From the NCBI GenBank assembly GCA_964036045.1, contig OZ038389.1, forward strand, positions 64,770,453-64,834,452: a DNA stretch of 64,000 nucleotides. The letters are read 5' to 3'. The notes under the pieces were generated by a model, which saw only the letters and a program-made list of their open reading frames with translations, searched no databases and was not told the DNA's origin. How positions within the stretch are numbered: position 1 is the stretch's first letter; each line of letters begins with the position of its first letter. Position numbers and translations under genes: made by a program. Shown here piece after piece: positions 193 to 60,139 of the stretch. The DNA comes from Eutreptiella sp. 'Long Island Sound 2002'. Its lineage: Eukaryota > Euglenozoa > Euglenophyceae > Eutreptiales > Eutreptiaceae.

Positions 193-360
193 GATAACAT
201 TTCTTGGCCAAGAAATGTTATCTACTCACATTTCTTTGCCAAGAAATGTTATCTACTCACTGAGGAGTTGGTGCTTGTTTGCCTGTTGGAGTAGTTGTAT
301 TTCTTCGCCAAGAAACGTTATCAGCCAGCGGGGTCGGTGATCACATTTCTTCGTCGAGAA
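193..360. repeat. Cluster of hairpin-forming palindromes
   Basis: Positions 193-222 are a perfect 30-bp palindrome centred on TTGGCCAA; each arm reads GATAACATTTCTT. Three degenerate versions of the same palindrome follow, near 229-252, 299-324 and 343-360 (core TTCTTCGCCAAGAA or TTCTTCGTCGAGAA). One R1 repeat copy sits between them. Such structures may be ends of small transposable elements or cruciform-forming sites. I cannot name the family. Confidence 0.75.
261..299 (+). repeat. R1 interspersed repeat, copy a
   Basis: R1 is a short repeat with core TGAGGAGTTGGTGCTTGTTT followed by a GTTGGAGTAGTTGT-like tail. This copy lies inside the palindrome cluster. Near-identical copies occur at 688-733 and 6270-6317, and diverged ones at 8121-8166 and 8196-8240. 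In this window R1 occurs only around the reverse-transcriptase copies, which suggests a link to that element. Confidence 0.7.
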
Positions 361-687
361 ATTGTGAGACCGATAACGGATATAAGATGATGTCACCAAT
401 CCATGGAGTGTGTGGTAAAATTTCCTTCCCTTTAAACAAGGCACATCATGCATCGGGATGGGGTTTTGGGTTGTTTGCTTGTGTGGGAATCCGGACCTGT
501 GGTCCAGTTGCACAATCACCCTACACAATTGCCGTTGCATTGTGTTGTAGTGTCCCCGTGTCCAACTAACGTCGGCATGAGGAGTTGGAGACGTAAGTGT
601 TCTTTGGAACGGTGCCTTGGGATATATATTGCAATATGGATGGTATATATTTCGGATTGAGGACAATTGTGTACTGTGAGGTTTTTG

Positions 688-733
688 ATTTTGGCTGAGG
701 AGTTGGTGCTTGTTTGCATGTTGGAGTAGTTGT
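688..733 (+). repeat. R1 interspersed repeat, copy b
   Basis: This copy is nearly identical over about 46 bp to the copy at 6270-6317, including the leading GATTTTGGC. It lies about 650 bp upstream of reverse-transcriptase copy A. Confidence 0.75.
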
Positions 734-1385: not shown

Positions 1386-3837
1386 TTAAACTTGGAACCT
1401 ACGACGCGTCGCCTTTCCTTGTGGGAGGGCAGCAGCGAGCATGGGTGTTCAGGGAACCCTTTGAAGTTCAGCCGCGTGCGTGTGGGACAGGCAATCAGTG
1501 GTATGCACAGCATGGTGGTCATGAAACAGGTGATTGACACACTGCGCGCACACGTGACGAGAAAAAGTGGGAATGAACTATATCCTATCAAGGGCAGGCA
1601 GACACACGTCAAAAGAACGGTGGCGGAAGTACTGTCCTCTATACCCTGTGCGTGCGCGTCCATGAACCAGAGACATCCCGGCCTGCTACAGGGCGGCCAG
1701 GACCATGTGGTCCTCCGCACACGTGCACAGTGGGGACGTATTCTCACACCGATGGAGCTGCAGTGCGCCACGCAGAATGCCAGGAATGTTACGCTGCCTT
1801 CCAAACAGTTTATACAGGACACTGTCCAGCGCTTGCACACAGCATCTGTGTTCCTCTCTGATGTAGCTGATGCGCCTATCATAGATGATGCAACAATTAC
1901 CAATACAATTGACAGACACAGAGCGCAGTACACACGCCAATTCCCCCGGATGTGCCCTGACGTGTTTATGCGCATCAACAAAAAGCTCAGGAACTACGGG
2001 CTCCAAGCAGGCACCTGGGATAAGGAGCCTTGCAAGGTCCAGGCAACTTGCAGTGTACATATGCAACGCCAGCTGGCGTATCTCACTGTCACCGATCCCA
2101 ACTTTCACATCATAGGGGTCCAAACAGAAGCGCAGGGTGCAAGGGCGTATGTAATACGTGAAACCCTGATGTCTGCGGCACGCAAAGGCATCTTGGGCTT
2201 GGCCAGCGACTTGGGCTTGTGGCCAAAAAGTCTGCTGACGGAGGAGGGAATACGGGCAGGACTGCCCACTTTATGCTCGTCGTGCGCAGCGCCGTCGGCC
2301 TTCCATTTATTGAAATGGAAAACTGCTGAAGAGCAGTGCGACTGGCGCTTCAGGCTGGCGATCGTGCACACATGCTGGCCACCCCTTGAAGCGCTTCTCC
2401 AGGCAGATCGGACGTTGCCTTACTGTGTTGTTGAAAGAACTGCACATTGCCTGCCCATTCTGGGGTAGCCCTTCGATGTTAGGAGTGAAGGACATGTGGA
2501 ACCATATCCATAGAAACCCCCCACGCTTCCTAGATGTTTGGGAGAGGGACATCGACAACGCCTACTGGAATTTGAACAAAAAGAAAGTGGCACACGCTGT
2601 GCGCAAGGCGGCTGCGACGGTAAAGGCATATCGGCGAATGCACAGCACTTTTTGCTTTTCCATTGCGAAGGGAGGTCTGCGCATGTTGGACAGGATAGGA
2701 CACGCGGCCGACAGGAATTTCCGTGTTTTTACTATCGATAACGTCCTGGACTTTGTGGACTGGGACCTGAAGGATAACACACTGTTCGCTCTGTGGGGGG
2801 TTGTAATGCAACAGGCCAAGCAAGGGGTGCCCATTGGTGGATACTTAAGTGCACAGTTGATGTGCATTTGGGCACTCACTCAGGAGATGATTTTTCCGGA
2901 GGACCCGAAAAAAGAACTTCTGATCAGGAAAGTGCGAAAAGCCTGGCCGAGGCACCTGCCTACCCCTGCGACAAAGCCAGGCCCTGTGCTCACGTTTCCT
3001 GATCCTGCATATGTACCACGGAACAAACAGGTGCTGTACACGGAAGGTATGCGTGGGTGGTTCCATCCGAACAAACGTCTTCTACTGCAGGTCACATTCA
3101 GTGACACACAGGTAAACTTCACAGCGATGGGGCTCTGGGACTCGCACCCCGAGGGGCGCGTAGGACAGATCATACATCGTAGCCCACGCACACAGCATGC
3201 GTTCTTACGCAATTATTTTTTGCAGTTTGACATTGTTCGATGCCACATGGCAGATGTGCAGGTGCAGGGCCCTGCGACCGATGTCCCTGAAGTGATGCAA
3301 ACCAGGTAAATGGATAACGCCTATATGGCCCTAGGGAACATACCCACATACATACACACACAACTCGCTCTGTTTGTTGAAATTCTACACCAGGCCATCT
3401 ACGACATACCAATGAAGTGGGAAACCACAGGAGTAACTGCCGATTGGTGTGACACCCGCCTGCTCACTGAGCCCTGCTTTGACATGTGTATAAAGGGGGT
3501 GCCTATATGCCATGGCATGGGACCTGCTGTGCGGCTCTGGCAGCGCTGGCCTGACCCTTGGTCGCCAAACTGCCCATCTGTGTTACAATCTATGATTCCG
3601 GCCCTAACACATAAGACATTCCAGCTCCATGGGTCGCTGAGATCTTTAGAGGCTAATGTCAGGTGTATTATCCAAGGGTGTGGCTTCAAGAAATACAGAT
3701 GGGGGTGGTGGTGGATGCACATACGAGTACGGTTCAAGGCACGAAACCTGTTGCATGTCATTCCTCTACATACAGTCAAACTGTGGTACGACCAGGGACG
3801 ACAATGGGCAGGGCAGGGTGGGCACCATAGCATGTGA
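1386..3837 (+). pseudogene. Reverse-transcriptase-like retroelement, copy A (broken)
   Basis: This is the longest member of a four-copy family in the window. The first open frame (1392-2468) is an N-terminal region of unknown function and shares HVVLRTR(A/S)QW and AG(T/I)WDK blocks with copy B. The frame then shifts near 2380 into 2386-3309. That frame carries a motif A candidate (ERDIDNAYW, about 2548-2574) and a motif B-like segment (QGVPIGGYLSAQL, about 2821-2859). A TAA at 3307-3309 interrupts it just before the motif C equivalent (MDNAYM; Asp-Asn at 3313-3318). The same frame continues to 3837 with the conserved PMKWE and C-terminal region. Asp in motif A, the G-x-P-I-G-G loop and a downstream acidic pair support a reverse transcriptase palm. 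The Asp-Asn instead of Asp-Asp is atypical but is shared by every copy. The frameshift and stop make it a pseudogene. The exact retroelement clade is not recognised. Confidence 0.65.
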
Positions 3838-4002
3838 AACAACATGAAATGCATATGCTTTGTTAAGAGTTTTAGGCGAAAACCGGAGAATGATCTGGTG
3901 GGCGTACGACGAGGGACCCACTCTTCGCACTGCTTCACTGTGGATCTGCAGGTTATGTTCCGAAAACACTGTTGAGCCTTTTGCTCGTTTTGCTTTTGCA
4001 TT

Positions 4003-5791
4003 GTGTACACACGTGTAGTGCAAGAGATACAGCAACCGCTCGCGCGAAGGCAATGGCGACGATGCACATGTGCTGCATTGATGCGACAACATCCTGCCCT
4101 ACGGAACGATCTGGGACATGTAGTCCTGCGCACTAGGTCACAATGGGCATGTCTTTTCAGTGACGAAGGGGCTGATACCCTCAGCAGCAATGCGCGTCAG
4201 TGCGTCATTCCTTCCATAGATGTGCTGGCAGCTCAGATGGAGCTGTTTCAGGCGTCCCTGCAACACATGACTGTACCCGCAGAGGGTTTTCTTCCTTCCG
4301 CGTCTAGCATCTCCCCCTCTCTGACTTCTGCCTCTCTCTCCCTCTCCCCGATCCCTCCCTCGCTCCCCACGGCCCCGGCGTCCTCTTCCTCTGGGCTATA
4401 CCCGCCTGTGTCAGCGAGTTCCTTGCTTTCCGGAGACGATATAGCACCTATTGTTGAATGGGTACATAATTTCTGTCTTGCGGACATCTCTGCGTATACA
4501 CTGGAGTGCCCCACATTGGGCAGCGAACATGTTTCCGGGCTCTCTAAGCGCATCTGGGACCTTCGCTTTCGCGCAGGGATTTGGGACAAACAGCTCCACA
4601 GGATGTCTGGTGCATGCAGGGTGTTGGAAGAGGACCATGTGGTGGAATCCTACTTGGGAGGGGACCGCTTTATTTTGTGGGGCGTGGCAGAGTCCAAAGC
4701 TGCTGCCCAAGCAGCGAATGTGTATGATACACTGACCTCTGCCCAAGCACATGGGATTGTGGACTGTGCGATTCATCACAATCTCCTGCGCAAAGGGTAT
4801 GCAGATCTTTCGTGGGCTGCAACTCACATTAATTCGGTCTACACAGACCCGGAACCTCCACCTTCCCCTGGAGACACTGTAGATTTAGACCTAGGCCCCC
4901 AACGCAAGCATCAGCGGCCACTTTTTGGCGCGCCCTCTATTTTTCCATTTTAAAATGGAAGACGGTTGAACGTGGGGCACAGGCCATTGTTAAATGGCGC
5001 GATATTGTGTCCTTTAAACTCCACATCCTGCGCTCGTACGCACGCCTCATGAGCAGGTCACTACAGCTCATTGTCAGCGAAGTGTACCAGCAGTTCCAGA
5101 CATTGGGCATGCCGAGTATGGTAGGAGTACGTGATTTACTGGGGTCCCTGGGCAGGTTCAACCCAGTCTGGGCCAGCGTCCGCCCTGATGAGGCGGACAT
5201 GACGGATATTGTCCGAACCACCACACCCCCACACCTGTCCCCCGTGTGTTGCTTGCGCGGTTCAAAGACAATGTCCCCATGGCGGCAATATGTATACATG
5301 TGCCTGAGGCAATAAAGCCTAGACTTTTCAGGGCCCTTGAATGCTTCTTCAAGTCTATATATCAGATAGGCCTGAAGTGGGAGGACCATGGTGAAATAGC
5401 ACAACTGTGCGAGTGCGAGTTTGTCCCGGCCACAGACGTGTTCCTGAGGCGAAAAGGTATTGTTTCCAGCCTGCAGGAGCCACTGAGACAAGACTTTGAA
5501 TGGTAGCGGTGGCTGCCTGTTTCCTCCCCTAATGCCAAGCAAGTCCTGACGTCCACCTTCCCCTTCCTGTTGCACAAGAGTCTCCTCTATTGCTGTAATT
5601 TGGAGGGTTTCAGGGCAAATGTGAGGTCACTGGTGAGGGGGGCAGGATGGCACAGATACCCCCCAGACTGGTGGAAGAATTCAGTGAAGGGTTTCCTGCA
5701 GGAGCTGGCACTGGTTGACAGCATACCCTTCACAGACATAGACAGATGGTTCAACGAAGGAAAAGAGATCGGACGGGCCATGCCGAAGTGA
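4003..5791 (+). pseudogene. Reverse-transcriptase-like retroelement, copy B (internally deleted)
   Basis: Copy B starts about 165 bp after copy A in the same orientation. Frame 4003-4953 aligns with the N-terminal frame of copy A (HVVLRTRSQW, AGIWDK) but contains a Ser/Pro-rich insertion (about 4300-4420). Coding similarity continues in a second frame from about 4950 (GMPSMVGVRD, matching SPSMLGVKD of copy A). A third frame carries RFKDNV at about 5258-5275. Relative to copy A, roughly 240 residues between the motif A region and motif C are missing, so the catalytic core is gone. An in-frame TAG at 5504-5506 replaces a residue that is Leu in copy C. The C-terminal part (RANVRSL, GWHRYPPDWW) ends at 5791 and is followed by a GT-rich tract at about 5837-5882. 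It is clearly non-functional. Confidence 0.65.
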
Positions 5792-5836
5792 CAGTGTATG
5801 TATGCACAGGGCCTACCTGACATAGGTAGGTACAGT

Positions 5837-5882
5837 GCATAGGTGTGAGTGAGTGTGTGAGCGTGTGTGTGTGCGTGTGCCT
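5837..5882 (+). repeat. Imperfect GT microsatellite after copy B
   Basis: This GT-rich tract begins about 45 bp after the end of the copy B reading frame. Copy D is followed by a longer GT tract at a comparable distance (16206-16256). The shared arrangement suggests that the element may end in a simple repeat, as several non-LTR retrotransposons do. Confidence 0.6.
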
Positions 5883-6269
5883 GGTGTCCTAAGACAGGAC
5901 TGAGCCAGTTGCAGATGCCTGTACATGACAGCAGGCCCAGTCCGAAGTGACCCCTGCTACTATATGGGAGCGTAGCAAGGGGGCCAGGGGGAGGGATAGG
6001 GTGCTGAGCTGTGTGCATGCCCCTGTGGGATCATTTTTTAAGCTCCCAAGCTTCATGGACAGTGCGTGCACAGTTCATGGTCCTTCTTATCAGAAAATGA
6101 TACCAGCAGTTTTTTGGCAACACCACGAAAGGGATGGGGAGAAATAGGAGTGACAACATACACAAAAAATTTCCGCAAGTGTGTGTGCACAAAAGCATGT
6201 ATGTGTGTGTACATTGTTTGCAATGAATGCATTCCATGCACCCTATTTCAGACCCTACCATGCTCAATT

Positions 6270-6317
6270 GATTTTGGCTGAGGAGTTGGTGCTTGTTTGC
6301 CTGTTGGAGTAGTTGTA
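6270..6317 (+). repeat. R1 interspersed repeat, copy c, abutting copy C
   Basis: This nearly perfect R1 copy runs directly into the truncated 5' end of reverse-transcriptase copy C. Similarity to copy A begins immediately after the repeat, inside motif A, so the junction is either an insertion site or a recombination point. Confidence 0.75.
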
Positions 6318-7733
6318 TGTTCTGGCATATCCCCAAGGGCAATGTTGTGCCGGCCCTGCATGAACTGTTTGAGCTTTTGGAGGGCGAGAAGCGCGGATGT
6401 GCAGAGTTTTTTGCACTGCATAAGTCTGGGGAGAAGGCCCTTGATCGCCTGGATACAGCGAGTAGTGCTGACTTCAGGGTCATCTCCAGACAGGAATTGC
6501 TGGACTTTGTTTCCTGGGACCTGCACCACAACACAGGGCTGGTGCTGGGCCCGCTGTTGCTGAAACAAGGCGATCGGGGTGTCCCGATCGGTGGGCATTT
6601 GTCGGCGCAGCTTGCTGAACTCTGGGCACTTGCCCGTGAGCTTAAATATATTTTTGGAAAGCACCGGTCTGATCTTGTCAAGACGTGGGATCAGACAGTA
6701 CGTAAAGGTGAGGAAGGAGCATCAGCGTCCCTGGCCGATATCCGTGTGTGTCCGGGAACCTATCGAAGTTTGTCACCCGTCTTGCAGGGGGTTACAGAAA
6801 CTGGGCAGAGTACCCGGGAGCACATACCGACCCTTTCTGCACAGCAGTACTTTGCGTACTGATGGGTTCGGAGGGTGGTGGGGACCTACTGATGCCTCCT
6901 TCGGGTACCTCGACGTGGACGGAGTGCAGGTTGATTTGCTGGTGACCTCCCTCTGGGACGGAGCGCCGGATGGGCGCATGGGTACTATTATGGCAAGTGC
7001 ACCCCCCCGAGACAGGGCGCGGCTTCGCGAGTTCTTTCGGGAACTGGACCCTATGGACTTTGTGGTGAGCGAGGCCCGTCGAGGGTGGTGGGGGTGGGCG
7101 ACGCGCCCATCCGACCCGGCTGTCCCTGTATCCACCACCCCAGGCATTCTTTTCTCACGTTTTCGTGATAACATCTACATAATTTTTATGAACATCCACC
7201 CTGCCCTGTTCCCTCGCGTTCGCCATGCGGCGAAGCATTTCCTGGACTGTTTGTATGGGGTTCCCCTGAAATGGGAACCTACAGATTTACGGGTATCCTG
7301 GGGAGAGTGTTCATGGAAACCCCTCCCCCTGGGCTTCTCTTTGACCAGGAAAGGGGTCATCTGGGACATCGCTGAGGGTGCTGAGCTGGGCGAGTGGCTC
7401 AGGTGGGTCCCAGCCCGCTCAGCCAATGCGAGCTTTACGCTGGCGTCTATGCTGCCGTCCCTGTTTCTCAAGTCACTGTGGTATGCGGGTTCCACTGCAG
7501 ATGTGCAGGCTAATTTTCGCTCCCTCCTCTGGGGCGTAGGCTGGCACTCTTACCCCAAACATTGGTGGTTGCCCTGTCTCACACGTTTTCTGCGGAAGTA
7601 TAACCTTCTAGAGGTGTTTTCCCTGGGATCTGTTACCACATGGGTTCGGGAGGGCAAACGGGCGGCAGCGACCAGCGGCTCGGGAGTGGTTTCATCTCAG
7701 GATGTTTCAGCGCATGCTGTGCAGTCCCATTGA
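6318..7733 (+). pseudogene. Reverse-transcriptase-like retroelement, copy C (5'-truncated, best preserved C-terminus)
   Basis: The similarity to copy A starts in motif A (FWHIPK against YWNLNK), right after an R1 repeat. The first frame runs to 6862 and carries the motif B-like GVPIGGHLSAQLAELWAL (about 6567-6620). Between about 6740 and 6845 the homologous reading moves to another frame, which stays open to 7733. This frame contains WDGAPDGRMG, the motif C equivalent SRFRDNIYI (Asp-Asn at 7167-7172), VPLKWEP, GEWLRWVPARSANASF and the C-terminal GWHSYPKHWW block. It lacks the N-terminal domain and the first catalytic Asp. Because the C-terminal 380 codons are open, it is probably the youngest copy. 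It lies in the same orientation as copies A and B. Confidence 0.7.
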
Positions 7734-8120
7734 TTTGTGGTGCCAGTGTGAGTGCTTTGTGTCGAGCGACACATATACTGGACGTATGGCCCTGTGTGAA
7801 CGCATAGTCTGTGTGTTTTTGACATAAATCAGGTTGAGTTTGGTATGGAAACGAAAGGCGGGTCTGGTGCCACACAAAACGAGAGTGGACAGGATCCATG
7901 GGCGCCAAGGGTCGAATATGGTGTGTGCCCGGGACCACAGGTGCCTACCGATGATGAAATGTCGTTGTTGTCCTTATGTATTTGCGTGCCGAGGGCAATC
8001 AGCCTGACCTTGGGCCACCAGAACATCCTGTCCACTGTTGCATTGTTTGTTTGCACTAGCCTCATGGGCATGGCCGTGTTTGTCTGAGGAGTTTTTGTAC
8101 TTGTGCTCGCCCCTTGCAGC

Positions 8121-8166
8121 CTTTGGCTGAGGAGTTGGTGCCTGCGTGCATTGCTGAACTAGTTGG
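8121..8166 (+). repeat. R1 interspersed repeat, copy d (diverged)
   Basis: It shares CTTTGGCTGAGGAGTTGGTG with other R1 copies and then diverges (CCTGCGTGCATTGCTGAACT). It lies about 390 bp downstream of copy C. Confidence 0.6.
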
Positions 8167-8195
8167 CTGTGCACGGACCTATCACAAGCAGTAGT

Positions 8196-8240
8196 CTTTG
8201 ACTGATGAGTTGGTGCTTGTGTGCACATTGCTGAATTGTT
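8196..8240 (+). repeat. R1 interspersed repeat, copy e (diverged)
   Basis: It reads CTTTGACTGATGAGTTGGTG and shares the ACATTGCTGAA tail type with copy d. The two diverged copies form a near-tandem pair with a spacing of about 75 bp. Confidence 0.55.
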
Positions 8241-9000
8241 AGAGGGAGAAATTGCTTTGCCATGATGATTTGCATTTGTGGTTTTGGGTACAAGAACTAC
8301 CCCCGTGTGTGGTATTGACATGCAGTGCATGGCGTCATAACACGGACAGGACATGGGCACTTGCTGCTATATGCAACGGTGTGGATCAAGGCTGTGCTTT
8401 CACTCCTGACTTCACACTGTGCAATTTGTTTCGTGTCCCAGACCCTTCACTGTTCAACAGATTATGCTGCATGGACACTGTTCAGCCTGTGTTTGTTTGC
8501 TTTGCATTATGTACACATCAACCTGAACCCTACCCTTTTGGGTTGGGGAGGGATGTCCTTCGGGCTGGCTTGTGCTTCGCCCTCGTGACGTCCCGGTGTA
8601 CTTAGGCAAGTGGCACGCACCCAGCAGCACATAGTTAACCACCCCATCACCCCACGCTTTCCATGTTTAAGAGAACATAGTAAGGTGAAAGCCAAACGCC
8701 CATGTGCAGAACACTGTGTTGGGTGCTAGCCGTTGGCCACATCATATGCCCGTCACATCACACATCAAAGGGGGCATCCCTTCTATTAGGGCTTTGCCAT
8801 TTTGCACTCTATAGTGCCTGCGCTATTGCACTCGCAAAAGATTGTTCAAGATTGTGCATTCTGTGTCCTCTTACTCACCTTATCCCTCGGCTGTTTTTAC
8901 GTGAGTCTTGAACACACAACTCTACATGTAAACCACGTGCACAACCGGGATTCAGGGGGAATCCAAGTATGATACATCACATGGAGTTCACACAATTTTC

Positions 9001-9059
9001 CATACCCGGGATTTTGAGCAAAATCCGGTTGTCATACCAGGAATTCAATCCCGGGTATG
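9001..9059. repeat. Nested inverted repeat upstream of the coiled-coil gene
   Basis: Left arm CATACCCGGGATT (9001-9013) and right arm AATCCCGGGTATG (9047-9059) are perfect 13-bp reverse complements. A shorter inverted repeat, GATTTT-GAGC-AAAATC, is nested at 9010-9025. Related CCCGGG/ATCC fragments continue to about 9105. It lies 160 bp before the proposed start codon at 9218. It may be a small transposon remnant or a structured promoter element; nothing in the sequence decides between them. Confidence 0.7.
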
Positions 9060-9217
9060 ATATCTGGTTTATTGCATGAATCCCCGGGTTGGACACCCGG
9101 ATTTACAATTTCATGTGTTGTTAACTTCCCCAGATCCATGAACCCTCTTTGAATTTGATCTGCCGTGTTGGGCGTGTCCAAAAGCCCTGAGGGGTGCACA
9201 CGTGTGCCATTGTCATC

Positions 9218-9466
9218 ATGGACCCTGCACCCGTCCCGAAGAAGAAGAAAGCAAAGCGGAAGAAGAGTTCGGATTCTACACCGAGTTCTCAAGCCCACTC
9301 TCGGCGTGAGTCTGGGGCATCGGGGGTGAGCACCGCTGCACCTGCTCCCGCTCCTGAGAGCCCCTTGCCACCGTTGCGGAAGGCAGCACCTCCTGCAGGC
9401 CCTGCGGTGTCTTTGGCAGACAACCCTGCATTTGCTGCTGTCACCAACAAAAGCGTTCGAACACAA
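9218..9466 (+). CDS. Coiled-coil gene exon 1
   Basis: It begins at ATG 9218 and encodes residues 1-83: MDPAPVPKKKKAKRKK, then a Ser/Ala/Pro-rich linker. The donor is CAA|GTGTGT, phase 0, chosen because exon 2 starts in phase 0. The start codon is the second ATG-like option in the frame; an upstream ATG at 9194 would add eight residues. Confidence 0.6.
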
Positions 9467-12400
9467 GTGTGTAATCTGCTTGCAACTCCAGCCCCCTTCG
9501 AGAATTCCACTCTGCAGTTGTGGTGGAGGCGAACGAGGCAGCATTGTCATTCTGCGTGCACGATGGGACGCAAATAAACACAAACAGAAGCAAACATGAG
9601 GTTGTATGCCCTACAGCGGTGCTACTTTGGAACAGACCGAGTTGGTGATGAGTTATTGCTGTTGTCACCTGGCGATCCTACGCACAAATGTTGTTTTCGT
9701 CTGAACTTGTTCACCTGCTGTGTGCATCTTGACTTCGCTCGTGACACAACACATTTACTGCACCCATTCTTCTCGCACTAGGTGGAGCTTCTGATTGCCA
9801 AAGAGAATGAGCTTGGGAAAAGGGAGGCCGACCTCGCAGAACGACTCGCTGACCTTGGGCCCCGGGAGCGAGCAATGGAACGGATGTGTCGCAAGCGGGA
9901 GCAAGAGCTAGTAGCCAAAGAGGATGATTTTGCGCAACGCCATGCGCAGTTCGAGGCAGAATCGCAGAAGCTGAAGCAGGACCAACAGCAAATCCAGGCG
10001 TATGTTAGCTGATTGACCGGGCTGCAGTATTGGCATTCGCTTTAATGAAGGTGATGAAGTTGGGGACGTGCCCAACCCCGGCCGAAGCGCATGGTGGTGG
10101 GGGACGGTTCAGCGCTCAGCGTCCAGAATGACCGCCAGCCAACCCCCCCCCCCCAATTTTCAGTTCCTGTGATGTGGATGGGTTCCTGTGAACTGAGGAT
10201 TGCATGGCAAAAGATATCACACGCCTTTTGCAATTTCGGCCGTAATCTGTCTGTTGCCGGGCCTGCCACTGTGCGTGCATGTCTTTTGTCGAGGGTGAAT
10301 ACCTCGACTTTCCCGTTTGGATGCCCCAGGAGCAGATCTGCTGACAAGAGTGCCTCAAATTGCCATTCTGATTCTTCTTCCCTGAATGGATGCCGTTCAT
10401 CCGCTCTCTCTGCAATCTGCCCATCATCCCGAATCATCGTATTCGTTCGGTGGTTTCAAGTGGATGGACCAGATTATCAACTGGAATGGGGCCAGATTTG
10501 GCCCTAATATCGGTGATCTCACCTACCACCAGCCACCAGTTTGCGCGAAACATGCACCGAAGGATGCTTGAAAAGGCATACCAAAGGAAATAGAATTTAC
10601 CACAATTTAATGAAATTTTGTTCCAGGAATTCCGAGATGAGGACCCTTGCCCTGGATCTGTCGTTGTATCTGTCGTCCACCGCGGACGGGATTTGTGTGT
10701 TTGTCGTAATGCACTGCGGTACGTTCGCGCCGAACCTCGTTCGATCACTCGCTGCCTGAGTCAAACCCACCCACGTCGTGCTACAGGCGGGAGGAAGCTG
10801 TTGCAGCGCAGGAGGAGAGTCAGCAGGCGTTGGGAGTCAAGCTGGAGGCTGAGGCGGCACGCTTGACGGCTCTCGAGGCCGATCAGGTCCGCCGGACAGA
10901 GGAAACTGAATCTTTGGCCTCTGCCACAGAGGCTCAGATGCTTGCATTGCAGAAGCGAGAGGAGGCTGCGGCTGCGAGAGAGGCCCGGAATGTGAAGCAT
11001 GAAAAGTCGCTGCTGGAGTTGCAGACTGAGGTTCCAGCATCTGTGTGTGGGGGGGAGGGGGGCAGTGCATTGGTTCTGAGCGAGTTTGAGCATGCCAGGC
11101 CACAGGCCACAGAATTGATACGTTGGTTTGGTCGTTCTTGTCTGCTGGCATTAATTTTGAATCATGTGAGTAAATTGGGTGATGCAATAAACATATACAA
11201 TCTCAAATGTGTGTCTTATCGTCGTTCTGGTGGGTCAATGCTGACAAATGCACGCAGGGGAAAGCACGGACACAGGGCACCGCCAGGTGGAAGTATTGGG
11301 TGCCGCTGAACAAAAAACGCCCCGAACCAACAGGTACCTGACATAGGACCAGGAGACTGAGTAGGATATTGATTTTTCAAACACACGGCACCAGAACATT
11401 CAAAGCAAACCAGGAGAGCTGACGAAAGGAGTCCAGCAATACTACGGGTGACGGGTTGGGGCCCTTTTATCTATTTTCGTACAGGGGGCCAAAGAAGGTC
11501 TTCTCTGGAGCTCGCTCTTTTGTAGAGGCCCATGATCAAGCGACATTTCCCCAACGCTCTGGCAGCAACACAGACAGTGCACGTAAAGCCCCTGCCCGTG
11601 GTGAACAATGCGCAATTGAGTTGTCTGCGTCATTGATCTTTCAATGCACAGCTCCATTGGGAAGCCACTCCATAATATTGGACATCAAATAAACAGCACA
11701 ACCGCCAAAAGCAGACACGGACAGTCAGAAAATGCCCCATGCCTGGATTATCCTCAAAAGCTCATCATCCTATGGGGCATTGAAATATGCACAGAAAAAT
11801 TGAAAATAATGTGGTGATTTGTCCCTAGCACAGTCGGGGTCATGAAACCAATTGCCTCCTCCCCGTTTTGCAGACCCCCAATACGGCGAGGATAGTGCAT
11901 CTTCCTCGTTCCTGCTTTGGGGACCCCAATACAGCAGGGGTACTTCAGCCGTACCAACCCGCTGTGGGGACCAGTAGTGTAGTCAGCAGGCAGGCCTTGA
12001 GGGTGAGAGATGCAGTCATGGATTGCATGCAACGCAGGGCATTTGATCGACCACACACCCGGCGATCGGGACCAGAGTGAAGTGCCTCAATACTGCAAAG
12101 TGATAAAGCCATTTGCCTTTTCCCTGTTTTGGGGAAACCGGTGCGGTGGGCGTTACCAAGGCAATGCAATCCTCACCACTTTGGGCACCCCAATACAGCA
12201 CAAGTTCGAAGGCATTTACCTCCTCCCTGCTTTGGGGACCCCGACACGGCAGAAGTTACGCAGCCATTTTTCTCGACTTGTTGCATCAGGGGTTTACAAA
12301 GCTGTTGGAGCACACCCGATTGAGCCAACTACTACGGAGTGCATATTCACATGCAGGGAGTTCCATCCACACCTAAACCCCTCATGTACTCGTGGATTAC

Positions 12401-15400
12401 ATCCCAAATTTTCACCATTTGGTTCATCCCATTATTATTCATGCTTAAAGTCATGACATTTTCATTTTACCCCTTGCCCCCGTCACCTTCCTGCCCAGTG
12501 GTGGGCCAGAGAACCTCTCTTTTCTTTTACAAGTAGAATGCGCATTGCTTTTTGCCACTCAGCTGCAGATTGAGCGAGATTGGATCCAGGAGCGGCACCG
12601 GCAGGTAGCGGTTGTGGAGATTGATGCTAAGGACCATGAACAAGTCTTCCAACGGCGGCTTCAGGAGGTTATTAAGCGGGAGAAATCGCTTGTGGCGGCT
12701 CAGGTCTGGTGCCCAACCTTGTTCCATGACAACCAATCCAAACTCATGAGAGAGAGCACGTCGTGCTGGCAGATTCGACGGCACCATTGACCAGTCGAAA
12801 AGATGCGCGTCCAAAATTGTGGGGGTTCAGGACCCAGAAGATTGCCCAGAGGTTGAGCCACAGATTTGTCATGCCATTCCCCGAGAGTTATCATGGACGA
12901 AGGAAAGGACTGGCAAATACCACCACCGTCAGTGCCCCCGATCCTCAAACCGGGATGGGGCTTTTTTTCCCTGGTCCCCCAGGCTGAGAGTCCGCCTGCA
13001 ACTTCTCTACACGAGCTTGATCCCGGAAAGCTTCATTTTTGCTCTCTGGCATCATCCCCATGCCTGTGGTTGCCCGTGTGTCTTTGGATCCGCTGATGCG
13101 GCTCTTGCAGGAGCGGCTGTCCGAAGAGGAAGAGAGGGTGGCTGCTGCCGATGCTCAAGTACAGTCGGCTATTTCAGAGACTCGCGCACGGGAAGAGGAC
13201 TTGCACAAGCACCAACAAAGCCTGCGAGAGCAGCAAATTGCTGTGGAGCAGTTGAGGCATCGTACGGAACAGGTCCGAATCTGCCCTGGGCACGGCATAA
13301 CCCCGTTAGTAAAACTGGTCCAATGATGTATATTTCATGCATTACGGATCAGGCCCATTTAAGGCGTCCTGCAGGGGTGCCTGAATCGAGGGCCTCGCTC
13401 CACCCCCTTTCCTATGGTCTCTCATGGTTTCTTGTAGTCCCAAAAGGCCGGACGAACAGGCTTTCAAACGTTGATGACACTCTGTGAAAAAAAAGCCACT
13501 ACAACTGCACCTGCTCACATGGCCTTTCCGTACTTCCCTGCGGGGATCCTGCCCTATTTGCTGCTGACTTGTTAAGTGGATCTGTAGATTTGTGTGGTGA
13601 CGCATGTTCTCGAGAAGAAGTTTCTTTGGTGCCTTCAGCTGTACCCAAATTTTCTCGTGCTCCTTCGCATGCTTTGCTTTTATGGCCTAACCCCGTTCTG
13701 GGGCCGACAGCCATGTTTTGTGCTAGATGTGGGGAACTGGGGCCTCGGAGGGTGCCAGATGCAAAAGCAATGTGCCTCTGCGATGTGCGTCTGAGTGGAC
13801 TGGTTCTTGAATCTCTTGGTGGACAGTTTTGTCAAACAATGGCGTCTTCTGGTGCTTGTCCATACTTTTTGTCAGCCAGCTGGACATGTCTGACCTGCCT
13901 TGAAAATGTGCTGATGGTTGTACCGGGTGTATTATGCCCCTGTGAATTAGCCTCCATGGGCTCAGGTCACACTGAGCGAAAAATTTTATCGGTGTCTTCA
14001 GTGCTACCCAAAATCCAGCACCAGCTGACTGGTCTTAGAATTTGTGTCAATGCCGACGAATCATCACGTATTTGGGCTTGGGGTCACAATTTTCGGAAAG
14101 TTGAGCAAGCCATGCTTTATTCGGAGCCCAAATCTGGTTTGGTGACACACGAGTTAGCTTCTGGACTGGCAGTTTTATCTGCTGAAGTCTCTTGATGAAC
14201 GCTGTGATGAATCAAAATCACAGCTGTCCCAGGCCACCCCCACCCCCCCTCCACATAGCAAAGGGATCATGTGGCAACAATACAGCACAGCAAGTCCGGC
14301 CATCCAAAATGGAGCAGATATGGTTACGTCATTTGTAAGCTTGTCTGTAGGACCTGTGGGGGAGAGGGGGGGGGGGCGACAGGGCAGAAAGTGATTACCC
14401 CACATTCCGGACACACCATGCACATGTCCCATAACCCCCCCACTCTTTTCCAAATGGTGAGTTTTGGTCGCCATATTGTTGGAATTTCTTTCGCCAATGA
14501 GGCGGGGTGGAGAACGCTGTTCCTGCGGCGCCTGCAGCGCACCCTGCGTGCACCCTGCGGCCCGCAGCTTGGGAAAGCCGCAGAGTTCTGGAATATAGTT
14601 TGTGCATTGTTGAAAACCTAAAGCCCATGCGATTTGTATTTAATTTCTTGTTGTGAACACTACTGAGCACTGGATGGAGCAAGATGGGGCGCTTTACAAA
14701 TATTGTTCGTTGCTCGTATGACTCCTGTTGAACTTGTTGTTGTGAACCGATAAACCAGGTTTCTCTAACCTTGCGGCACCTGTGGCGAGTAAAAAGCCCC
14801 CCCCCTTGCTTCACCTCATTTCCCCTCAATTCCCACTGTTCTCGCACAACTTCTGGCACATGCTGATTTCTCAATATGGAACGAATGCGACCCCCCTGCA
14901 CCACCCCGGCTGATGTGTGGTGGTGCCCACAGGGCTTTTGTTTCCACCACCGTGTTGTCAGGACCGGGAGCATGCTGAGGATGTGCTTCGTGCGCAACGC
15001 ACCGCCTTCGCTCAGCAAAGCGCTGCTGCCGAAGCCCAGTGGCAGGACCGCGAGCGAGAGGCGCAGGATTCCCAAAAGCAGCTGGCGCAGGCTCAAATAG
15101 AGGTGCAGCGGCGGGAGGCAGATGTCTCTGCCCATGAGAAGGCCGTGACAGTGCGTGAGAACGCAGTGCAGTCTGCGGAGGAATCGGTGTTCTCCCGGGA
15201 GGAGGCTGTAACGCAACGGGAGGAGCATGTCACTGATCGGGAGCAGGAGGTGCAGGTGTCTGTAGCCTCTGCCGCCATGCTGTAGCGAGGGCATTCCAAT
15301 TGGCGGCTCTTTTTCTGCACAGGCAGCAGATTTGCACAGCCTGTGGGGGGTGTACAAAAACAGGCACAAATTCCGAGCACTGGGGGATTTGCACATCTCT

Positions 15401-16205
15401 GACGAGGGTTTTGCCCACTGGACCAATGAACATGGTGCAGCAGCCCTGTGCCAGTTCAGGGATAATATCCTCACAGCAACCAGCTACCCTGACAGCCCTG
15501 CCACCCGTCTGGTTGAACTCATCTGTAAAGTCCTTGAAAGCAGCTGGGATCTGGCAGTGCTCTGTGAGTGCAGACAGAAACAGGCGGACGTGTGCAAGAC
15601 AACTTGTTACGGTACGTCGTGTGTGGTGTTAGGCTATAGCCTGCACCAAGGGACACAGGGCGGGGGAACAGTTTTTGTCCAGCCAAGCCCCCTCAACTCG
15701 CAGTGGTCCCTGAAACTGGCCCCCCCACTCATTACCCCTAACCAAAGCCACCTGGCATATCTTCCAGGGATCCTGCTTGGCGTCCTGAATAATGCACGTG
15801 GTGTTGGTCATGGGCGGGTGAACTGCTGTCACATCCTGGCTGCAGATAGCCGTTTTGTCTGGATACCCCACCCCAGCTGTTACAAAAGCAGCTCACTCGG
15901 CTGTCATTAGAGGGCCATCAACGAGTCCCCATGAGGCGATTCGCACAGTGCAATACCTGCATTCCGTCATAGGCCGCCTACCCATGCTAAAATGCTGTGC
16001 TATATGCTTCGTGCTACAATGGCTGACAGACAAGGCCTACTGGAAGGGGACACACCACAGCAGCTGGGAACTCCCAGCGCAAGTGTCACCGGATGGAACT
16101 ACAGGAGCCTGGTCGGACGACTGGAAGCTCTTGAAAGCGGCAGCCCATGATGCGCAACCTCCATCCCATGCATGTTCTTGAACCACACTATGAAAATCCA
16201 ATGAG

Positions 16206-16258
<53 letters not shown>

Positions 16259-17324
16259 CAGGCGGTTACCCTTGGCTCAACGAAAGATCACAGCCTGAGA
16301 ACAGTGCTGCACGACCCATGATACCGCAATACTCCCCTCTCCCAGGCTCCAGTCAGGTGACCACAATGGGCAGGGCCTGTGACTGTAAAAGGATAAACCC
16401 CGGCCCATTGCATCAAATTACTGCGCATTTGTAGAGCATATAGGTCCCTGTCACGCCATCACCTCAGGGTGTGAAATGTCGTCGTCACATGCATGTGTGT
16501 GCGTGGTGCATACACAACCCCGGCACGCAGCATGCCCCACGGGGTATAACCGACCGACTGCCAGTGGGAAGGCGCAGGGAACGTCGTGCGTGCTGGTGAC
16601 CTCATTCCCCATTGGATCCACGACGGGACAGCACCAATATTCCTCTACTGCAGAAAGGCGCCAAGCCTCGAACAATGTTTCTGTCTTTGTTTTGATTGGC
16701 TTGACGAGGTGTTTGGAGGCGTTTGCTCCGTGACCCTGCCCCGCTGTGCTCTGTATCATCCACACTGGGCCCCTGGTCGTTGGTTCATTTGTTTCCCCAA
16801 CGAAGTGTGTGTGTCTGTGTGTGTGTGTGTGTGGGTTTGTGCTCGGTTTCTTGGTCACCTCACGCCGTGTGTGTGTGTGTGTGTGTGTGTGATTCGCGCT
16901 GATGGAGAGGGATGACTTGGTGAACCCAGGTTGCGGTTGCCGTAGGCCTAGAGCACCACTTGCTAATTGTGAGTTCGTCGGTTTTATTACTGTTGCCGGC
17001 AGTGAGTGTATGTATGTGTTTGTGTGGCAGTGCTGAGCCTTACTCCATTCTGTTTGTGTACTGGCGGTTGCCGACTACACATCCCCTGCAGTCTAGGGGA
17101 TCTGTTCCAGAGTGAGAGAATTTCTTTCGCATTTCTGTTTTGGTCTGAATGTAGTGTATGCGTGATTGTATGTGGGTGCATGTCTTTTGTCTTGCTGAGA
17201 GGGAGGAAAGGCTGCTGAGAATCAGCATGAAATAACCAAATATTGCTGCAGTGCGAACAGAGTTGTTGAGAGGTGCTGTATTGACAGTGAACATTTTTTG
17301 TTGTTGTGATCTGGGTGTCACACA

Positions 17325-17403
<79 letters not shown>

Positions 17404-19697
17404 GGGAGGAGGGGGGGGCGGGGGCAAAAACAGTCAAACAACCTCGGCGACAACCAGCACAACCTCAATATGCCAACTACTGGGCACCACTGACGCGCAA
17501 ACGGCACACCATGCGACATCCAGCACAGCCCCAGCACACCAACCACTGGGCTCCGCGAACACGGAAACGACACCACCAAGATCACCGGCCGCAGCGGCCG
17601 ACAGAAAGCAACAACCTGATGCAACATGCGAAGGGAAGAATGGGTGACTGTCCAGGGCCCCGTAAAGAAACAACAACCAGACGGAATGTCACACAGGGGG
17701 GCAAGAGGAGGTGGGAACACACCCCCAGGGAGCTGCCGCGCAAGCGCAGGTCCCCAGCTGGGCGCCTGGTGCAGCGGCATGGCTGCGCGGGAATGGAATG
17801 CTCGTAATCGTCTCTCTCACAGAGGCTCTGGCCTAGGCGAGGGGGCAGATGCAGGGGGGCGCCCTTTATGCCGCTGCGACTATGTCTCACCGGCAGACAT
17901 TGGTGCCTTCCACAGAGCACGCTAACCCCATGGACACATGCAGGCCTGCCTCTATAATATGGTGTTTCTCCAAACACACACACACACACACACACATAGA
18001 GAGAGAATTGTAGAGGGGTGATGTATGATAGCGAATGCTATCGCTTAGCTTCACAAACACACGCACGTTGCACGCGCATCCGCACGCAGCCCCAAACCCA
18101 CACCCGCACCCACAACCACACCACGTTGTTTTCGCAGAGCTGCAGCATTCGGCAGCAGCAAAAGGAGGAGGAACAGCAGAAGATGGATCTAGCATTGGTG
18201 GATCGCGAGGCACGTGTTTCCGCACGCGAAGATTCAGCCACTGCCAAAGAGGCTGCAAACCTCGAGGCAGGGCAACAGCTCGCCGAAGCTGAGCGACAAC
18301 TTGAAGTATGTCCGTTTTTTGTTTTGCTGTGGTGGGACTCGTCTTGGGCTGATGCCAAGCCTGGGTTCGTGGGTGTGGTCAGGGAAGAGTCGGACTTGAG
18401 CAGTGCCGAGCCGGATCACGAAAATCCGTCGTGAGCCATGATCTAGAATTCCAAAACTTGTTCGTAAGTTTAGTGGGGTCGCCTACCGGTGCCGTACGTG
18501 CATGTCGTTCCGGTTTGGTTTCACCTTGGAATTTATGTCCAGTCCCATGAGTGACACCAGTTTGCTCACTATCAGCGGAGTTCCTTGGGAGTGGGCACTG
18601 CACCCGAGACACCACCCATGTCAGTCTACATGCCTCTGCGTCACAGAGCGTGCCCCGGAAGGTCGTCCACCCAGTCTTTCGCCAGTCGGCAACGCACTCA
18701 CGAGCAAGGGAAAGGCATCGTGACATGCAGCACACCTGGCGGCCATGCAATGTGGCGAAACGTGATAGTTGCCCTCTGTTATTGGGGCCACAGGACACAG
18801 CGCAGTGCATTGCTCAATGACAAAGCAGGCCCCTGGCTCGGACCCCATCCAATTGGACCTTTTTGCAGCTGGAGAAGGCGCCAGACAGAGTGCTAGTGCA
18901 TCGTGCTTTTGCACTGGGAGTCTTATTTGAGTGCCGTACCATTGCGCGCAGTGCAACTACAGCCTGAACGGTGGGCAAGAAGCAATTTCAGAAATGGGAC
19001 TCGCTGGGAGCCCACTCTCTTTGGTCTAAATTCAATGAAGACAGGGATGGTGCCTGCTGCTTGTTGCGCTTCTAGGTCAGTTTTGCTCCGGAGTGCGGCG
19101 GACATGGTTTGGGCGACCGCACGGAAGGCCTGAGGCACTGCGACCAACAGCTGGAACCCAGACTCGCAGCCTGACAATGGCGAATTTTGCACATGACCTC
19201 TGTCGCACAGGGTCATCCAAAAAGCACGCACTTAGGCGCGCTCTGTAGTAGTGACCATGTGGGGAGCCAAGTGATTGGCTCCGGGGGCGAAAGGACCGGT
19301 TTGGCCAATCCGTGTCCCGCATTTCCGGCCACCTCGGGTCGTTCGACCTGTCCTCGGACAGGTCTGACGTGTGCCCAGCCCGGGCGGCGACAGCCACACG
19401 TGTGTAAGCCAGCACGTATCCAGTTGAGAACCCGTGTCTGGGCTGGTGGCAGCAGACGACGAGCAACACTGCTGCAGAGCGGGAAAAAAATGAATGCTGA
19501 CAATTGGAAATTGAGCCCGACCTCATTATCACGCTGTGGTGTGCATGTGCAGGCGGGTTCCTGGCGTGCAAGGGGTGCCGTCCCCTGTGGAAAAGATTGC
19601 CATTGCTGTGGTTTATGACGGTGATCAAATGGATTTCAACAATCTGTAACTCAGCACGGTGAATGTCATAGAGAGAGAGAGAGAGAGAGCGAGAGAG

Positions 19698-37012: not shown

Positions 37013-37507
37013 CGTACCCTCTATTGGGCAGCAAGACACAGAAAAGGTGCAAACACAGCAAGGTACAAACGTTACTGCCTCACGCCGTGAAGTATTGGAA
37101 CAAAATGACATTGAAACCACACCTGTGACATGTGGTGTTCATATGTAGTAATCTCAATGAAGCCCACAAGTCTCTGTATTTTGCTTGTTCCATGTCGAAG
37201 ACCCCATTGTTCTTCTACATCACATTTTCGAGGCACCAGGATTGCACCTCCAATTTGCGTTGATGCACTACCCTGACTGTTGCCAAATATGCATGCAGTG
37301 CACGCACAGTGCACAACATGCCCAACCCCCCAAAGGGGGCTACTAGCAATTGCACCCGAATTGTTCTAGGCCGCCCCACATTGACTGCCAAACCCAATGA
37401 TCACTGCGAAGGGCATTGCAGTACGCCGCAAGAAAAATGTCCCTGGGGGAGGCGTGTTGCATGTGCAGGTCCATCTGTCTCTCAGTGTATATTCACATCC
37501 TGACAGA

Positions 37508-38434
37508 ATGAGCTCTGTGTCACCAACCAGACAGCACTTGAATACCGATGACAGAACTGAAATCCAGCACTACAGCCCTGTCACCGATAAGCGACCGGAA
37601 GTCCACCATTACAGCCCATCTTGGGCTGCGAATGACAAACCAGAAGTACAGCACTACAGTCCATCATGGGCCCCACCCAGTGTCTCCACCGATGATATAC
37701 CCCGCCAAGACAGCGCCGACAGCAAGCAGTTCCTCACCCCCCGGGCCAAGGCAGCCGCAGGCCCCCCGAATCGCATCCATGTGATCCTCGAGCCCAACAG
37801 GGCCGTCGTGGCGTCGCAGGAGATTGCGCAGCAGCTGGACGCCATGGACGGGAAGATGGACGGGCTGTACCTCGGCAAGCCCATCGTGGTCGCCCCCATC
37901 ATGACGGTCGACCCCGCGGCTTCCCCGCCCTCCGCCCGCGTCGTCACGGTCGGGGCCGTGTGCAACCCCGACGCGCCCCCCACGCCGGTGGCCACCGGGC
38001 AGGTGATGTGTCCCGGGGCCCGTGACGGGGACCCCGTGTGTCAGCAGTGCGGCAAGCACCACACCGTCAGCGGCGCGGCCTGCGCCCCGGTCGCCGGCAG
38101 CGACAAGACGCTGGAGACGCTGGAGCTCGTGGGGCTTGCGCCCTCTATCCGTGCGATCGACCCGCAGGTCGGGGCGTACTTCGTCCCGCTGGCGCAGTGC
38201 CAGGACAGCGTGGGCTGCACGGACGCCCAGAAGGGCAGGCGGGACGTGTCCATCTGCCTCTTGTACCAGAACGGGACGTGCCGCGCCGAGCAGCACTGCC
38301 GCCAGGTCCACGCGGACCGGCGCTTCGTCACGCACATGCGGGACCTGTCCCACGCCAACAACAACTGCTGCGTGCACCACGGCGACGTGTACTCGCACCT
38401 GTCCGAGTTCAACACGCTTCTGAGCAAGTACCAG
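37508..38434 (+). CDS. CCCH gene exon 1
   Basis: It encodes residues 1-309, from MSSVSPTRQHLNT to FNTLLSKYQ, and includes the first CCCH finger. The donor CAG|GTCGCA is weak. A stronger donor, CCG|GTGAGT, lies at 38526 but is in a phase that does not fit the exon 2 acceptor, so it would need an extra exon. Confidence 0.75.
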
Positions 38435-40424
38435 GTCGCAGGGCGGGGCTTCAGGAACCTTTCAATTTGGGTTTGGTGCTTTGGGGCCTGGAGGACAGCC
38501 ACAGGGCGACGCTGCTTCCAGGCCGGTGAGTAACGGATGGCAGTGGGACGGCAGCCGGTGACCGGAGCATTCTTTGATATCAAAAAGGGTCCCTAAACAG
38601 CAGTGGGAGCCCCATACAATTGCTTGGAGCCCGTGCATGTGCAGCCCGCAAAGCTGCGCACAGCCACAATATACGCCTCATACTGGCCCGCAGTTCTTAT
38701 AGTAAAGGCGAGAGCAAAATGTGCGGATTGACGCACGGTGCTGTGTGCACTGATATGCACGCATACCGCCGCATACACCCCACACAACCCCTTTACCCCT
38801 CCGGGGCGGTGTGGCTTTGTAGGCGGCTGTGGCTTGTAAGCGGCTGTGTGGGGCTGTATGGGGCTGTGCACATCAGCGCACGCACGCAGTGCACACAGCA
38901 CTGTGCATTCCAATGCACACATAAGTCCTTTCACAACGGGATTTTTCGTCATTTCCACCAAGGACCGCCCTGTCAGGAGGCCCTCTGGGCCGGCAGTAAG
39001 CCACCAACTGCCGGTATTTGACCGGTTGTTGACCAACCCCCCGCAGGTTATGTCCCATTTTTGTGTTCATCAAGTACTGACTGCAGGTGTGAGGTGCATA
39101 TGTGTTCTCGTTACCAATGCCAAACGTAAGACGGATGTATTACTGGATGATTTGAAATTTCGCTGTGTGCAGTGCCCGGCTGCCATTTCTATGACGGTGT
39201 GCGCATTTCATGGGTGAGGCGTAACTCAACGAGATTGTTTGTGTTTAAGTGTACACAATACTATGCATACGAGTGCAGACAGCACTGTGGGTGCATAAGA
39301 AGGGAGGGAGGGAGGGAGGGATGGATGAAGGGAAGGCGGGAGGGCTGTGTGCGCTGGTATATACAGTGCGGTCGGCACTGATACGCACATTGGTATGCAT
39401 CATGATTGCTCAAATGATATGTGCACTCACTATGCACCGATTAATCTTCTGCTGCATGTACACTGAGGTGTGTCAGAAGACATTCACAGGCATGTGCACT
39501 TGTCTCTGCACACATGTGCATGCAGACGTGCATGTGAGTAAAGGTGCGTGTGCTTTTACATGTGCAGTGGTGTGCACTGATAAGTATACTAAGGTTCGCA
39601 ATGATGCGTCCATGCTTTGTTCCTAGTTATTTCATACATCACCGTCATTGTGCGCAATGTCTCTGCTAAGATTGGGCTAACCAAAACAGAGGCTGTCGCA
39701 CCACGCTCCTTGCCTTTTGCTTCCGGGACTGCTGGAGAGTTGTTGGATGGACGGAGGAGGCTGAAGTATAGGCGCTACACGCTGGGCCTGCCCTGTGAAG
39801 CACTGCACCACGTGTGGCTGACCTCCATTGCCATTGTCCGCCCCTCTCTGTCTTCTGTGTCGTTCCCATCCCTCCTCCGCACCGTCCTGTCCTTTTCAGG
39901 GCTGCTTTGTGATCACGCTGCGCACCCCGCGCACGCAGCTGCTGTACGTCCCTAAGGCCTATGTCGCGCACACCCAGTCCACGCTGGCCTCCCTGCGGCA
40001 GAACTGGGACAAGGAGGAGCACATCTGCATCTACCTGCACCAGATCTGTGGGCTTCATCAGCGGAACCAGTGCCTGTTCGGGCAGGACTGCAAGAGTGTC
40101 CACATCTGCCGTGAGCTCTGGAGGTCCTTCCTGGACAACCACGCGTGGCTGCAGAGCGCCGTGGTCCGGCAGCCGCACCTCGACTCCCGCGACGGCAAGG
40201 GCGGCAAGGGGAACCCGAAGCTGCTGGAGATGGCCCTCAAGAAGAAGGCCGAGCAGGACGCGCGGATGGCCCTCTACGACGAGCGCGTGGCGAACTATCC
40301 GCGTCCGGGGTCCAAGGCCCGGAAAGGGAGGAATTTGTCACGCAAGTTCAAGGGCGAGTCGGAGCCGGACGTCCTGTCGCCGCGCACGCCGCGGCCGGCG
40401 ATGAATGGGACGGATGCTCTCTGA
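37508..40424 (+). CDS. Double CCCH zinc-finger protein gene, two exons, 483 residues (whole gene)
   Basis: Exons 37508-38434 and 39900-40424 join in phase 0. Both CCCH fingers are C-x7-C-x5-C-x3-H: residues 250-268 (38255-38311) and 359-377 (40047-40103). Such fingers usually bind RNA, so a post-transcriptional role is likely by family; the target is unknown. Upstream of the first finger is a C-x2-C...HH...C cluster (CQQCGKHH) and downstream a CCVHHGD segment. The N-terminus carries three HYSP motifs (residues 21-24, 34-37 and 49-52), possible proline-directed phosphorylation sites. The C-terminal tail is Lys/Arg-rich. GC content rises sharply inside the exons compared with the surroundings. 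The start at 37508 follows a CAG acceptor-like sequence; an in-frame ATG at 37397 would add 37 residues. Confidence 0.8.
38435..39899 (+). other. Intron of the CCCH gene with TGCACTGATA-type repeats
   Basis: This 1.46-kb intron contains scattered copies of GTGCACTGATATGCACGCAT-like sequence (near 38745, 39373 and 39570), GTGTGCAGTGC-rich patches and a GGGA run (39301-39330). The open frames inside it (for example 39249-39626) are rich in Cys/Val/His because of these repeats, and I do not call them genes. Confidence 0.6.
39900..40424 (+). CDS. CCCH gene exon 2
   Basis: The acceptor is CCTTTTCAG|GGCTGC. It encodes GCFVITLRTPRTQLLYVPKA onwards, the second CCCH finger and a basic C-terminus rich in Gly-Lys, ending MNGTDAL and TGA. 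Confidence 0.8.
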   Translation, partial: GCFVITLRTPRTQLLYVPKAYVAHTQSTLASLRQNWDKEEHICIYLHQICGLHQRNQCLFGQDCKSVHICRELWRSFLDNHAWLQSAVVRQPHLDSRDGKGGKGNPKLLEMALKKKAEQDARMALYDERVANYPRPGSKARKGRNLSRKFKGESEPDVLSPRTPRPAMNGTDAL

Positions 40425-59500: not shown

Positions 59501-60139
59501 GCGTCCAGCGTTCTGCGTTGTCTACGTTTCCCTGGATCCTTTGCACCCAACCATGCACAAATTGATCAAAGTTGTCTCAGAAGGTTTGATTGACCTACTT
59601 GACCATGACGTTGCAACGGAACACATGGGTACACGGTAGCCCATCATTAGCTCTAATGGCATCCAAGGAACACCGTGGATAGATGCTCATCAATGCAGCC
59701 ATATTCGCCTCGACAGAGTCAACCATGACACAGAGACGGCACCACACATTGTCTCACTACTAAGCAAAGAGATGCCCCAAAGTGTGCTAAGCACACAGTT
59801 TGTGATGACTTCAAGCCTGCATTCCTCATCTTTGAATAACTGGCCTCGCTGGACATGACTAATGCCCATCTATGTACAATTTTGCAATGTTGGAGTTGGT
59901 AGTTATGGTCAATTTCCCATAATATCACGCATGCCACAATATCGAGCCCTAAGTGGGACCCACTCCTGGTGCTCTACATGTTTTTCCCTATAGGCAATCC
60001 CCCCCTTAGTGAATTTCTCCTTAGGAAATGCTGTGCACACAGTGCGAAGTTTTGGATGTCGCCATCTGCTAAGGGTTGTGCGTGCATACTACGCACGCAG
60101 AGGCTGAGATGGGGAGGGCCAGTTTTCCAAAGTTACAAT
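59500..60139. other. Intergenic, nothing recognised
   Basis: Apart from a short R3-like fragment (60028-60065, CACACAGTGCGAAGTTTTGG) I see no feature here. Confidence 0.4.

Follow-up and report, generated by a model that had tools for sequence, protein, structure and literature searches.

A reverse-transcriptase-like retroelement family with Asp-Asn at motif C in the genome of Eutreptiella

The window analysed here is a stretch of 64,000 nucleotides (C12:64770453-64834452) from the genome of Eutreptiella sp. 'Long Island Sound 2002' (2.28 Gb, 2205 contigs). Near its start lie several pieces of retroelements encoding a reverse-transcriptase-like protein in which motif C reads Asp-Asn. Asp-Asp in the YxDD motif at this place is regarded as near-universal in working reverse transcriptases. 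We built a family profile over the proteins in hand and all frames of the window and of the genomic loci examined, keeping rows at E 1e-3. Motif C is Asp-Asn in all 79 rows that cover it, and in 57 of 57 after collapse at 97% identity.

Element copies in the window

An earlier note on this DNA had described a reverse-transcriptase-like retroelement family with four independent copies, A to D. The family is supported by the data below, and motifs A and B as well as all four Asp-Asn codon pairs are real. The division into copies holds only in part: B, for the most part, and the whole of C are a single element, and the membership of D is unproven. The features are as follows.

1479..4012 (+), copy A, a 5′-truncated element that ends 3′ in ...GCATTGTGTACACAC (from the 3′ end comparison)
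2548..2568 (+), copy A motif A, DIDNAYW (from the sequence)
2824..2856 (+), copy A motif B, GVPIGGYLSAQ (from the sequence)
3313..3318 (+), copy A motif C Asp-Asn, read as R*MDN with the stop lying two codons ahead of Asp; the 78 further rows in the alignment have Asp-Asn too
4063..5209 (+), interrupted element, first part (N-terminal and middle parts of the former copy B, in two frames), recognised by protein similarity to copy A and full-length frames of the genome
5210..6315 (+), nested insert, a 5′-truncated family member with RFKDN, delimited by the uninterrupted site in L004
5267..5272 (+), nested insert motif C Asp-Asn, RFKDN (codons and family alignment)
6316..7733 (+), interrupted element, second part (the former copy C), with a frame change near 6820-6860
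6578..6610 (+), interrupted element motif B, GVPIGGHLSAQ (from the sequence)
7167..7172 (+), interrupted element motif C Asp-Asn, RFRDN (codons and family alignment)
15275..15910 (+), copy D, an open frame with motif-B-like EGIPIGGSFSAQ, family membership unproven
685..733 (+), solo copy of the nested insert's 3′-end repeat, one of five sites listed
about 260-304 (+), further solo copy of that repeat, with weaker ones near 8128 and 8203

Copy A starts at about residue 709 of P0104, a long open frame found elsewhere in the genome. It is interrupted by a frame change near 2370-2390 and by an in-frame TAA at 3307-3309, directly before MDN. The copy is 79.4% identical in DNA to L009/L010 over 1479-4010/4013, and its two frames are 84% and 71% identical in protein to P0104.

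Next to copy A, one element is split by another. The genomic locus L004 runs unbroken across the junction, matching window positions 4768-5209 at 90% and then 6316-6375 at 92%. Accordingly, the N-terminal and middle parts once called B belong to the interrupted element, and the Asp-Asn once ascribed to B is that of the nested insert. The insert is about 1.1 kb long, is bordered by TAT on each side (5207-5209 and 6316-6318) and ends 3′ in the repeat ...GGCTGAGGAGTTGGTGCTTGTTTGCCTGTTGGAGTAGTTG; the solo repeats are 98% identical to 6268-6316 and 6278-6323. Its C-terminal polymerase part is similar to copies A and C. The second part of the interrupted element shows 71-72% protein identity to the environmental protein P0077 (542 residues).

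As proteins, pieces A, B and C share homology (22-38% identity, best E about 1e-33), but a DNA self-comparison of the A-C stretch finds only repeats below 75 bp; they are therefore separate lineages of old age. Adjacent copies in the window belong to different subfamilies. As read from the sequence, the window copies are broken and 5′-truncated, and the frames on which the earlier note relied are protein fragments only. We also found that elements cluster elsewhere: at L014, a second member of another subfamily (6844-7653 (-), RFMDN) lies near the main copy.

For copy D, alignment to the family profile covers only 24 residues round motif B, at 6.4 bits compared to 4.0 for the best of 200 shuffles, and the frame is not among the profile rows at E 1e-3. 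Its QFRDN, with Asp-Asn at 15461-15466, is not covered by this alignment. The copy is located next to or within a region (9781-18310 (+)) of stretches resembling exons of one coiled-coil protein (9781-10000, 10790-11020, 12562-12700, 14960-15280 and 18140-18306); the frame 10710-11306 in this region has no Pfam match.

Conservation of Asp-Asn and the polymerase fold

Relatives were collected by searching proteins with P0001, the translation of copy A across its stop (24 proteins), with a 13-row alignment (69 proteins) and with a C-terminal alignment (33 proteins). The lists overlap and contain frames of the window. Many relatives are on large contigs; for example, P0026 is found at 100% at C1 of the genome, and P0008 corresponds to L020. 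Nine are on contigs of 0.76-2.1 kb (P0025, P0044, P0050, P0067, P0068, P0071, P0077, P0081 and P0085). Searching the window's own genome gave at least 58 matches, amongst which we examined 8 returned loci and 25 further regions, partly the same places.

The rows with Asp-Asn include long open frames of three subfamilies and environmental contigs, and the pair is kept in all representatives of a 25-row alignment with identities down to 22%. Three residues ahead of the motif C Asp, 78 of 80 rows have R, and at the position directly after this R, 77 of 78 have Y or F. Among the aligned rows, the Asp of motif A is kept in 79 of 86 and the Pro of motif B in 90 of 91. The Asp-Asp by which D/DD-triad reverse transcriptases are recognised occurs in none of the 79. 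Thus, an Asp-Asp consensus is excluded for the loci sampled, without extension to every copy, and the alignments support the proposal that Asp-Asn is ancestral in the family.

Two further features surround the active site. Of 87 rows, 80 have D at position +2 of motif A; at position +3, 77 have N and 8 have D, and the variants D-M-D-D and D-M-T-D occur; we speculate that a second acidic residue at +2/+3 could compensate for the lost Asp. In familiar reverse transcriptases, motifs B and C are a few tens of residues apart. In P0026, the distance is about 145 residues, and this insertion is folded in the predicted model and carries a conserved LWDSHPEGR-like block.

The predicted model and fold searches give a palm fold with motifs A, B and C in order and, as the earlier note had asked of such a model, place the Asp-Asn block inside the palm. 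Telomerase is the nearest fold, filling rows 1-14 of the structure search. By sequence, the family proteins have no credible match in Pfam, NCBIfam, PHROGs or PADLOC; they fall below the curated cut-off of Pfam RVT_1 and do not match the Pfam telomerase RNA-binding domain PF12009. Profile searches, proposed as a check, thus yield no credible family, and telomerase emerges through predicted structure. A PF12009 match is located elsewhere in the genome, at C4:55446671 (63.1 bits, cut-off 25), which indicates that the family is distinct from the host telomerase gene. A pattern search of 6.6 kb at this place (L037) detected no exons of the host telomerase reverse transcriptase, so that this locus gives no same-genome Asp-Asp control.

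The idea of an undescribed clade stands in one respect and not in another. No library model matches credibly, and a search of the open literature, with most subscription papers outside its scope, found no description of such an Asp-Asn motif. The predicted fold and layout, on the other hand, suggest a type already described, namely Penelope-like elements, which are related to telomerase.

Full-length elements and mobility

Long open frames are found at three loci: P0102 (L012, 1501 residues), P0103 (L027, 1494) and P0104 (L010, 1478), the last ending about 14 residues short of the end of its relative P0002. The full product would therefore measure about 1,480-1,500 residues, with a predicted N-terminal region containing a GIY-YIG-like block, a linker that has CxC in the majority of the subfamilies examined and a C-terminal telomerase-like polymerase. 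The block upstream of the polymerase reads GI[LM][VI]YA[VI][VI]GRFxPY[VI]GQLGxKT, followed by R...EH and then E...PTLN, and judging from these motifs it is likely a nuclease. A CxC motif is present in P0102, P0103, P0026 and P0021 (P0026 and P0103 belong to one subfamily) and as CAC in copy A (P0070). In P0026, motif A is at 418 and motif B at 510, a spacing that would accommodate an insertion-in-fingers domain.

Within subfamilies, copies are 95-99.7% identical in DNA, with varied 5′ starts and a common 3′ end: GCATTGTGTTGT(A) in two subfamilies and GCATTGTGTACAC in the subfamily of copy A. This combination of shared 3′ end and variable 5′ truncation is that of target-primed reverse transcription. 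None of the 17 element 3′ ends compared has a long poly(A) tail.

We computed the ratio of nonsynonymous to synonymous substitution rates (dN/dS) for 15 pairs. The ratio is 0.05 for L010 compared to copy A (303 codons) and 0.20-0.23 for L020/L021, L019/L020, L019/L022, L012/L015 and L009/L010, and these are the pairs that we rely on. Values of 0.29-0.57 (L012/L013, L012/L016, L027/L004, L027/L028, L012/L023 and L027/L001) come from pairs with few changes or with frames entering non-element flank or a frame break. L021 compared to copy A gives 0.12 at a dS above 4, and two pairs have no dS. The low ratios and near-identical copies agree with a history in which selection maintained a functional protein and the elements were then copied recently.

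Searched against Rfam, the repeats of the window have no match at gathering score, hammerhead ribozyme included. At a relaxed threshold, only weak matches to microRNA models appear, far under their cut-offs, at the hairpin at 189-262. This hairpin is a near-perfect inverted repeat of about 70 bp, and L025 has similar sequence. Another short mobile piece is seen at 8059-8121, where 63 bp recur unchanged within an 88-bp segment inserted into the element copy of L016.

Elsewhere in the window, the frame at 60089-60568 (-) is RVT_1-like (E 8e-06; 26.1 bits, 3.5 bits short of the cut-off of 29.6); it is what remains of a conventional reverse transcriptase and has no relation to the Asp-Asn family. 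The frame at 52783-53442 (+) resembles a DDE transposase by eye and has only a weak and unrelated Pfam match. Frames at 37385-38533 and 39822-40424 have spaced Cys/His resembling CCCH zinc-finger proteins, with no Pfam match.

Interpretation and comparison with known systems

We consider it probable that the window holds broken, 5′-truncated copies of a retrotransposon lineage with several subfamilies, which is target-primed and uses an active site of D in motif A and D-N in motif C. In such a cycle, the GIY-YIG-like nuclease would nick the DNA, and the element RNA would be held at its conserved 3′ end. The polymerase would then copy the RNA from the nick, starting at the element 3′ end, and frequent early stops would leave 5′-truncated copies. 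Within YxDD, the exchange for Asn affects the second Asp alone; the metal ions would still be held by the Asp of motif A and the first Asp of motif C, and Asn may act as a weaker metal ligand, as in the GDN polymerases of viruses.

Several observations weigh against this reading. Sequence profiles recover neither a reverse transcriptase family nor a solved structure. The GIY-YIG-like pattern, found in 3/3 long frames and 0/9000 shuffles, was composed after viewing the sequences. Pfam does not recognise the block, its hhalign comparison with E. coli YhbQ and UvrC is no better than with shuffled columns, the N-terminal structure model is poor (mean predicted local distance difference test score, pLDDT, of 52) and P0104 has no CxC. 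Clear target-site duplications were not found: among 11 copies, L005 and L028 score above the best of 50 shuffles, L004 is tied and 8 are below, and the L005 match, 212 bases from the 5′ break, may be local repetition. Finally, the elements may be mobilised in trans by an Asp-Asp enzyme.

This last point leads to the strongest alternative, which we nevertheless judge unlikely: catalysis was lost, the fold was retained for RNA or DNA binding, and an Asp-Asp enzyme copies the elements. Prp8 is a precedent for a non-catalytic reverse-transcriptase fold, a polymerase fold that lacks a catalytic Asp is usually dead, and the genome has other reverse transcriptases, such as the RVT_1-like remnant in the window. 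A dead fold would, however, have no need to keep the Asp of motif A, motif B or the first Asp of motif C (present in 79/79 rows), and all of them are retained. The cleaner pairs moreover have dN/dS of 0.05-0.23, and the copies with long open frames are recent.

Far less probable is a divergent telomerase gene, or retrocopies of it, in place of an independent mobile element. Telomerase is indeed the nearest fold, but the family has at least dozens of copies in several deep subfamilies with 3′ ends of their own, it carries a GIY-YIG-like block at the N terminus, and the telomerase RNA-binding-domain match is located elsewhere.

We give very little credence to decay, in which Asn arose in dying copies of active Asp-Asp elements: the window copies are broken, but the uniform Asp-Asn, in long open frames and environmental contigs alike, contradicts it in the sample examined. 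Equally improbable is a captured RNA-virus-like RNA polymerase, although GDN is known in viral RNA polymerases and most named rows of a viral structure search are RNA polymerases. Virus and prokaryotic origins were also tried and set aside; two scans of viral contigs and one of prokaryotic contigs found no relative, with few short patterns used, so that these absences are weak.

Returning to the target-primed lineage with a D-D-N site, we lean on balance towards a recently active member of the telomerase/Penelope branch that has long run with this site. It would be a natural reverse transcriptase with only two of the three catalytic Asps, in which metal use or fidelity is probably altered, and it may be aided by the extra acidic residue at motif A +2/+3 (D-I-D-N, D-M-D-D, D-M-T-D) and by the long B-C insertion. 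Altered metal coordination, also raised in the earlier note, would be consistent with such a site. If so, multiplying Asp-Asn elements would make the second Asp dispensable in nature for this fold. They would serve as a natural experiment on two-metal catalysis, and the neighbourhood of telomerase and Penelope would gain a divergent branch. For annotation, they are a warning that existing models overlook such elements.

Amongst known systems, Naiad and Chlamys are reportedly (Craig et al. 2021) Penelope-like elements with an N-terminal GIY-YIG endonuclease, CxC and a telomerase-like polymerase. The family shares with them the order of nuclease-like block, CxC linker and telomerase-like polymerase as well as 5′ truncation, and no hammerhead ribozyme was detected in the window copies. 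It differs in the Asp-Asn of motif C, the long stretch between motifs B and C, about 430 extra residues ahead of the nuclease-like block, a nuclease assigned by motif alone and the lack of CxC in P0104. Naiad and Chlamys are listed as groups of Penelope-like elements (PMC10941475), and Chlamys elements are described in Ectocarpus (PMC12477816).

According to PMC3846280 and PMC11167929, canonical Penelope/Poseidon elements carry their GIY-YIG nuclease at the C terminus and often contain hammerhead ribozymes. On that account, they resemble the family as single-frame retrotransposons with a telomerase-like reverse transcriptase. The family differs by the N-terminal place of its nuclease-like block and by the lack of a ribozyme match in the window. 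The telomerase-like polymerase that marks Penelope-like elements is recovered here through predicted structure only, the matches being to telomerase itself. Compared to telomerase reverse transcriptase, the best structural match to the family model, the family is multicopy and mobile, has Asp-Asn and lacks a PF12009 match, for which the host has a separate one.

The preprint PMC12632851 places DRT10/UG reverse transcriptases in one broad clade with telomerase and Penelope. Those enzymes, as presented there, are bacterial defence systems, and the family has no credible PADLOC match. The GDN RNA polymerases of negative-strand RNA viruses have Asn at the second motif C Asp. They thus carry the same substitution in a different fold branch and life cycle, and we regard them as a parallel only.
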